DNA from: Phocaeicola barnesiae DSM 18169 = JCM 13652
GTDB lineage: Bacteria > Bacteroidota > Bacteroidia > Bacteroidales > Bacteroidaceae
Assembly (NCBI RefSeq): GCF_000374585.1
Contig: NZ_KB894644.1
Span: 62,001-126,000, forward strand
Reading direction: 5' to 3'
DNA: 64,000 bases
The notes under the pieces were generated by a model. That model had not been told where the DNA came from and made no database searches. It was given only the letters and a program-made list of their open reading frames with translations. The translations under genes and the position numbers were made by a program. The stretch's first letter is position 1; every line of letters begins with the position of its first letter. This document shows, in pieces, positions 6,073 to 6,277 of this stretch.

Positions 6073-6106
6073 AAAAAAAAGGCTGTCGTAAAGTACGACA
6101 GCCTTT
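6073..6106 (-). terminator. trp attenuator terminator
   Basis: A perfect 13-bp stem (6078-6090 with 6094-6106) with a 3-base loop is followed, on the minus strand, by eight T residues. It stands between the Trp-rich leader peptide and trpB, where an attenuator terminator is expected. Confidence 0.9.
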
Positions 6107-6154
6107 CACGGTTATATCTTTTCTATGCAGGTATATACACACGACTGAGTTCCC

Positions 6155-6217
6155 TTACGACTTTTGGAGTTGTAAGAGGCGCCACCAGAAGAATGTATAT
6201 GCCATAGATTGTTTCAT
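6155..6217 (-). CDS. trpL: trp operon leader peptide (tandem Trp codons)
   Basis: A 20-residue reading frame on the minus strand encodes MKQSMAYTFFWWRLLQLQKS and ends in TAA. The two adjacent UGG codons at positions 11-12, in a genome where Trp is rare, are the signature of a ribosome-stalling leader. The codons after WW form the left arm (CTTACAACT) of an imperfect hairpin whose right arm (AGTCGTAAG) contains the stop codon. That is the layout of a 1:2 pause hairpin. The terminator follows about 50 bases later and then trpB. The family context and position make this convincing; translation itself is inferred. Confidence 0.88.
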   Translation of the reverse strand: MKQSMAYTFFWWRLLQLQKS

Positions 6218-6246
6218 TGTTGTTCTATATTTTTCTTGTTTCGTTG

Positions 6247-6277
6247 CAAATGTAACGATAAATTTGATAAGTGCAAG
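6247..6277 (-). promoter_or_regulatory. trp operon promoter
   Basis: On the minus strand a -7 box TACATTTG (6247-6254) matches the Bacteroidales consensus TAnnTTTG. CTTG, 19 bases upstream (6274-6277), is a partial -33 TTTG. It lies about 30 bases before the leader ATG. The strong -7 match and position support it; the -33 is imperfect. Confidence 0.6.

Follow-up and report, generated by a model that had tools for sequence, protein, structure and literature searches.

A Bacteroid-trp leader of Phocaeicola barnesiae as a probable ribosome-mediated attenuator with a nested two-helix antiterminator

The trp operon in the analysed stretch of Phocaeicola barnesiae DNA (64,000 nucleotides, hereafter the window) is preceded by a leader which we consider, with a probability of roughly 80%, to be a ribosome-mediated transcription attenuator with a nested two-helix antiterminator. 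Upstream of trpB and further trp genes, the region 6277-6073 of the minus strand encodes a Trp leader peptide (MKQSMAYTFFWWRLLQLQKS) and contains both a 1:2 hairpin and an intrinsic terminator; its features are the following:

6276-6274 and 6254-6247, minus strand: probable promoter, TTG and TACATTTG, read from the sequence
6217-6155, minus strand: leader peptide ORF, MKQSMAYTFFWWRLLQLQKS and stop, 20 residues, stop codon UAA at 6157-6155
6187-6182, minus strand: tandem Trp codons UGG UGG, putative stall site at low Trp
6122..6208, minus strand: span of the outer 1:2 stem, from the MFE fold and the Rfam alignment
6176-6168, minus strand: segment 1, CUUACAACU, 5' strand of the inner 1:2 hairpin
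6161-6153, minus strand: segment 2, GUCGUAAGG, holds the stop codon; its partner is segment 1 or 6093-6085
6147-6143, minus strand: segment 2b, CAGUC, can pair with GGCUG of the terminator left arm
6106-6094, minus strand: terminator left arm, AAAGGCUGUCGUA, of a 13-bp stem
6093-6091, minus strand: terminator loop, CUU, co-varies with segment 2
6090-6078, minus strand: terminator right arm, UACGACAGCCUUU, of the 13-bp stem
6080-6073, minus strand: U-tract of eight U, overlapped by the last three right-arm bases
6021-4831, minus strand: trpB, first gene of the operon, TIGR00263 over the NCBIfam cut-off

The promoter presumably fits the Bacteroidetes -33/-7 consensus (TTTG / TAnnTTTG) and is listed as a candidate only. 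Downstream of trpB follow trpE, trpG, trpD, trpC and trpF; like trpB, trpG (TIGR00566) and trpC (NF001377) score over the NCBIfam cut-offs, the best matches of trpE and trpF are the expected families with scores under the cut-offs, and trpD was assigned from the reading of its ORF alone. In the MFE fold the strands of the outer 1:2 stem are 6208-6203 with 6200-6193 on the 5' side and 6140-6133 with 6127-6122 on the 3' side. Its part AUAUACAU/GUGUAUAU (6133-6200, minus strand) encloses the entire Trp-codon region and belongs to the Rfam consensus. In the inner hairpin segment 1 pairs with AGUCGUAAG across the stop codon, with one A-C mismatch. The 1:2 fold also pairs CAG of segment 2b with a CUG that overlaps the first Trp codon, so a ribosome stalled there would free segments 2 and 2b together. 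An earlier note on this DNA had described a trp leader with tandem Trp codons and an attached 13-bp terminator, as well as a 1:2 hairpin overlapping the stop codon, and both descriptions hold, the latter since CUUACAACU:AGUCGUAAG spans the stop UAA. The 7-base match GUCGUAA:UUACGAC, in which the note saw the whole visible competition with the right arm, exists as well, but it is not the limit of the pairing, which runs on through the terminator loop and reaches 9 pairs (GUCGUAAGG:CUUUACGAC, one of them G-U).

In an Rfam scan of the whole window the leader matched RF01692, Bacteroid-trp, with 54.2 bits (gathering cut-off 49), and the attenuator element belongs to this already known family. The loop, the right arm and the antiterminator lie outside the RF01692 model because the Rfam alignment ends within the left arm of the terminator. 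Matches to RF01692 at an E value of 0.001 or better were found in 39 of 61 genomes of the genus (34 over the cut-off), 52 of 201 of the family (34), 38 of 393 of the order (22) and 42 of 395 of the phylum (38), with the window's own genome counted each time and with stricter filters by which weak matches are lost. Most of the phylum-level matches fall in one other family of the class (f124), which we tentatively take to be Flavobacteriaceae. At trpB itself, a leader with tandem Trp codons (WW) and a terminator was present at all 55 genus loci examined, the window's own included and six of the 61 genomes left out for a distant or not full-length trpB match. The same combination was present at 77 of the 80 named loci, and at 38 of 69 order loci (the distant locus L283, discussed below, counted), the order set including distant trpB genes that are possibly not the first in their operons. 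The closest trpB among the 80 named loci kept is from Phocaeicola (90%), and records very near the window are possibly absent from that set. The plasmid collection, searched with the leader, gave no match. In one leader (L104, MKTILVNACLWRFLQLQKS) a single Trp codon replaces the tandem pair. The tandem codons, whose absence from relatives had been named in the earlier note as the observation that would speak against its reading, are thus retained across the genus and at nearly all named loci.

From 302 loci 198 distinct leader candidates were obtained, of which 189 were analysed; the nine dropped rows were seven with a terminator score under 31, L283, removed by hand, and a false reverse-strand row of L091. 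The Trp-codon region and the terminator of the 189 leaders were aligned separately, and for this reason pairing between segment 2 and the terminator is not built into the alignment. A second alignment was made with MAFFT from 40 hand-picked sequences. Among the 3,864 column pairs (92 x 42) of the 189 leaders the highest corrected mutual information connects segment 2 with the terminator loop, namely column 57, the first A of the stop UAA in GUCGUAAG, with column 22, a loop base on which the terminator stem places no constraint. The two columns form A-U in 126 leaders, G-C in 38, G-U in 19, G-A in three, A-A in three and A-C in none, which gives Fisher p values, uncorrected for ancestry, of 2e-25 (183 of 189 rows with A or G and C or U) and 1e-12 for representatives (83 of 87). 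The change from A to G at column 57 turns the leader stop UAA into UGA, and the stop codon lies within segment 2 in 133 of the 189 leaders. The pair further out, columns 58-21, is unpaired in 39 of 187, mainly as A-C in leaders with ACC loops.

The same helix stands out when partners are exchanged. In 83 cluster representatives, segment 2 with loop and right arm scored 16.7 in native combination, against 15.0 for swapped partners (z 8; none of 5000 permutations reached the native value) and 9.1 for shuffled segments, and a sliding position profile for loop and right arm peaks at segment 2 (17.5 vs 9.5 shuffled). Pairing of segment 2 with the left arm was also tried on these representatives and was rejected, as it scored 7.5, under its own shuffles at 9.0; the arrangement of the E. 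coli trp type, in which segment 2 pairs with the left arm only, is therefore not what is found here, segment 2 pairing instead with loop and right arm. In the 40-sequence alignment 94.3% of the cells of this helix are paired, with two-sided changes in five of eight pairs; its covariation score was reached by none of 500 shuffles, the count of further pair types by 25 of 500, and in slid registers pairing drops to 19-55%. The 1:2 helix (90.2% of cells paired, two-sided changes in five of eight pairs) and the 3:4 helix (94.2%) pass the same covariation test. The leaders share ancestry; a FastTree phylogeny of trpB for 156 of them (152 scored) requires no fewer than 10 and 9 changes at the two co-varying sites. 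It offers only four supported independent pairs, of which an average of 3.3-3.5 show the partner changing in the same direction, and a change in the opposite direction never occurs (p 0.125 and 0.25). In a plain ungapped search, segment 2 was the site of the best helix to loop and right arm for 158 of the 189 leaders; another place scores higher in 31, many of them Bacteroides-type and several with ACC loops. Eighteen of the 42 phylum matches are new loci in the second family of the class, and all 18 have GUCGUGA:UCACGAC or a close form with loop and right arm; with 6 nt of right arm out, all of them fold with 6.9-7.6 pairs to loop and right arm and 4.4-8.5 inner left-arm pairs. As far as sequence and its comparison among relatives can establish them, the leader and its 1:2, 3:4 and segment 2:loop and right arm helices are established. 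Together they comprise what is looked for in a ribosome-mediated attenuator, namely a leader ORF with tandem codons, an intrinsic terminator, a protector hairpin and, judged by covariation, an antiterminator that excludes the terminator.

The second helix of the proposed antiterminator is formed by segment 2b, which occupies a near-constant place directly downstream of segment 2 and has a lineage-specific sequence. It pairs with the left arm as GCAGUGCUC:GAGCCCUGU, with one mismatch, in Bacteroides leaders and as GCAGUCCU:AGGUCUGU in some Parabacteroides leaders. This helix was first spotted by eye and then tested. The register-free swap test on the 83 cluster representatives gave no support for it (z 1.16, 659 of 5000), and its peak in the position profile is small (11.1 vs 9.8), with a peak of similar size near the Trp codons. 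Folding in context gave 7.4 expected pairs compared with 5.1 for shuffled and 5.9 for swapped sequences, the native sequence exceeding the shuffled in 158 and the swapped in 139 of the 189 leaders. Modelling, together with statistics weaker than those for segment 2, thus makes the helix of 2b with the left arm probable. Alternatively, the leader might be an ordinary attenuator of the E. coli type in which 2b with the left arm is the whole antiterminator, and the pairing of segment 2 with loop and right arm an incidental by-product of the resemblance between segment 2 and the left arm. Left-arm use does predominate in E. coli trp, in the his leader of the window and in L283, and in several leaders scanned stepwise the left arm is taken up by 2b while the loop has yet to emerge. 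However, the strongest co-variation involves the loop, which lies outside the terminator stem, the helix of segment 2 is far better supported than that of 2b, and in the window the latter arises only together with the former. We therefore regard the ordinary arrangement as unlikely and retain the nested two-helix antiterminator as the preferred reading.

To model the switch we used equilibrium folds of truncated RNAs with a ribosome footprint placed on the Trp codons or on the stop. When the ribosome occupies the Trp codons and 6 nt of the right arm have emerged, segment 2 forms at least 5 pairs with loop and right arm in 176 of the 189 leaders, 2b at least 4 pairs with the left arm in 183, both helices are present in 174, and the terminator has at least 3 pairs in only five. 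Without a ribosome the 1:2 helix has at least 5 pairs in 175 of 189 leaders and the helix of segment 2 with loop and right arm reaches as many in eight. With the ribosome at the stop codon, modelled for the 129 leaders that share the usual stop position in segment 2, the mean expected pairs are 0.0 for segment 2 with loop and right arm, 0.2 for 2b with the left arm and 4.9 for the terminator. The terminator overtakes the antiterminator at about 10 nt of right arm in the window; for the 129 leaders it is, on average, already ahead at 9 nt (5.5 vs 3.2 pairs). Equilibrium folds of the full-length leader favour the terminator regardless of the ribosome position, and antitermination would therefore have to be kinetic. 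The suspicion voiced in the earlier note, that the antiterminator is unusual and involves other bases, is supported by these results, the additional bases being those of the terminator loop and, with weaker support, segment 2b (6147-6143). The right-arm competition it pointed to proved conserved and co-varying across relatives, both in the 189 leaders and in the 40-sequence alignment, and the comparison it proposed, folding with the ribosome at the Trp codons versus the stop, separates the two states: both helices form in 174 of 189 leaders in the first and nearly vanish in the 129 leaders of the second.

Co-variation by itself does not reveal the sign of the effect, because the loop positions are the only ones whose variation is independent of the terminator stem, and the pairing of segment 2 with the loop could accordingly be a tertiary contact or pseudoknot which stabilises or pauses the terminator. 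This we consider very improbable, as the pairing runs on through right-arm bases that the terminator needs and cannot coexist with the 1:2 hairpin, which itself co-varies. A different sensing route, in which a protein or a tRNA-binding T-box would act as sensor and the WW codons would be incidental, is hardly credible, since scanning the window against Rfam gave RF01692 as the sole match that passed its gathering threshold, and no T-box match, and the WW codons are kept at all 55 genus trpB loci examined and at 77 of the 80 named ones.

The switch we propose would work as follows. When Trp is plentiful the ribosome would reach the stop codon inside segment 2 and cover segments 2 and 2b, after its release the 1:2 hairpin would hold both, and the terminator would form and end transcription before trpB. 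Under Trp shortage the ribosome would stall at the tandem Trp codons and mask segment 1, which would leave segments 2 and 2b free. As the terminator region emerges, 2b would take the left arm and segment 2 would zip onto the loop and the early right arm, so that the nested two-helix antiterminator assembles before the right arm is complete and RNA polymerase passes. In this scheme the ribosome positions, the kinetic control and the response to Trp are inferences.

The pairing of segment 2 with loop and right arm is weak in 13 of the 189 leaders and essentially missing in four of them (L023, L030, L220 and L224). These four are WWW leaders with terminators. L283, which lies outside the 189, is a WW leader (MTYNAYWWRIGNNYRWRP) preceding a distant trpB; in the stalled-ribosome model it folds with a left-arm antiterminator (10.7 pairs vs 2.6), that is, with E. 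coli-like logic. The clamp is thus common in RF01692-type leaders and not universal. We somewhat favour the view that most RF01692-type trp leaders, in Bacteroidales and in the second family of the class, possess a distinct antiterminator which clamps the terminator at its loop and on both arms, the loop being the landing site; L283 and the 31 leaders with the best helix elsewhere lower the odds of this broad reading. In the same reading the choice of stop codon (UAA or UGA) would co-evolve with the loop (CUU or CUC), because the stop usually sits inside the clamp strand.

In the table of Weinberg et al. 2010 (PMC2864571) the Bacteroid-trp row reads y, y, n for RNA, cis-regulatory and switch, and the available portion of that paper mentions no antiterminator for the motif. 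PMC4833913 cites a comparative analysis of attenuation by Lopatovskaya et al. (2010), which may extend to Bacteroidetes. By title and beginning of abstract, no description of an antiterminator of the RF01692 family was recognised in the open-licence literature, where the layout thus appears as a variant without a published description. The pairing of segment 2 with loop and right arm makes RF01692, whose model has no antiterminator, a testable switch, accounts for the conservation of the terminator loop, and places the stop codon and the loop under joint constraint. The layout is worth seeking elsewhere, since searches restricted to the left arm would miss its main helix.

The window itself contains a second leader for comparison, a his leader (MIYTAAHHHPHHYLRK, about 10848-10730, minus strand) with a terminator upstream of hisG, in whose region no Rfam family was found at threshold. 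It resembles the trp leader in its His-rich peptide and terminator, but unlike it has a mainly left-arm antiterminator, with 10.2 expected left-arm pairs versus 0.9-4.2 to loop and right arm in one calculation and about 11 versus 1-5 in another. The contrast with his drawn in the earlier note was therefore well founded, the left arm being the main partner of the upstream segment of his. The E. coli trp attenuator, whose switch is driven by translation of the leader, shares tandem Trp codons (in trpL) and a downstream terminator with the window leader and differs from it in having 0.0 upstream pairs to loop or right arm in a comparable fold; its left-arm numbers vary between two calculations because the terminator arm was defined longer in one of them. 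For the other E. coli attenuators the pairs to loop and right arm are 0.0 in leu and up to 0.8 in his, and reach up to 8.3 in phe, 7.7 in thr and 5.4 in ilv, depending on the stall codon. In pheL (L326) a nested two-helix fold reaches loop and right arm at early Phe codons and fades at later ones, its outer strand being located partly within the final stretch of the leader ORF. Given such pairs in phe, thr and partly ilv, we abandoned the idea that the arrangement is absent from E. coli attenuators. The layout thus has parallels in prediction, these folds extending to loop and right arm for certain stall codons. To the RF01692 family as such the window leader corresponds in its score over the cut-off, its Trp-codon leader, its 1:2 fold and the downstream trp genes. 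What appears distinctive in RF01692-type leaders, judged from comparison of their sequences, is that the conserved and co-varying helix is the one with the loop and right arm.
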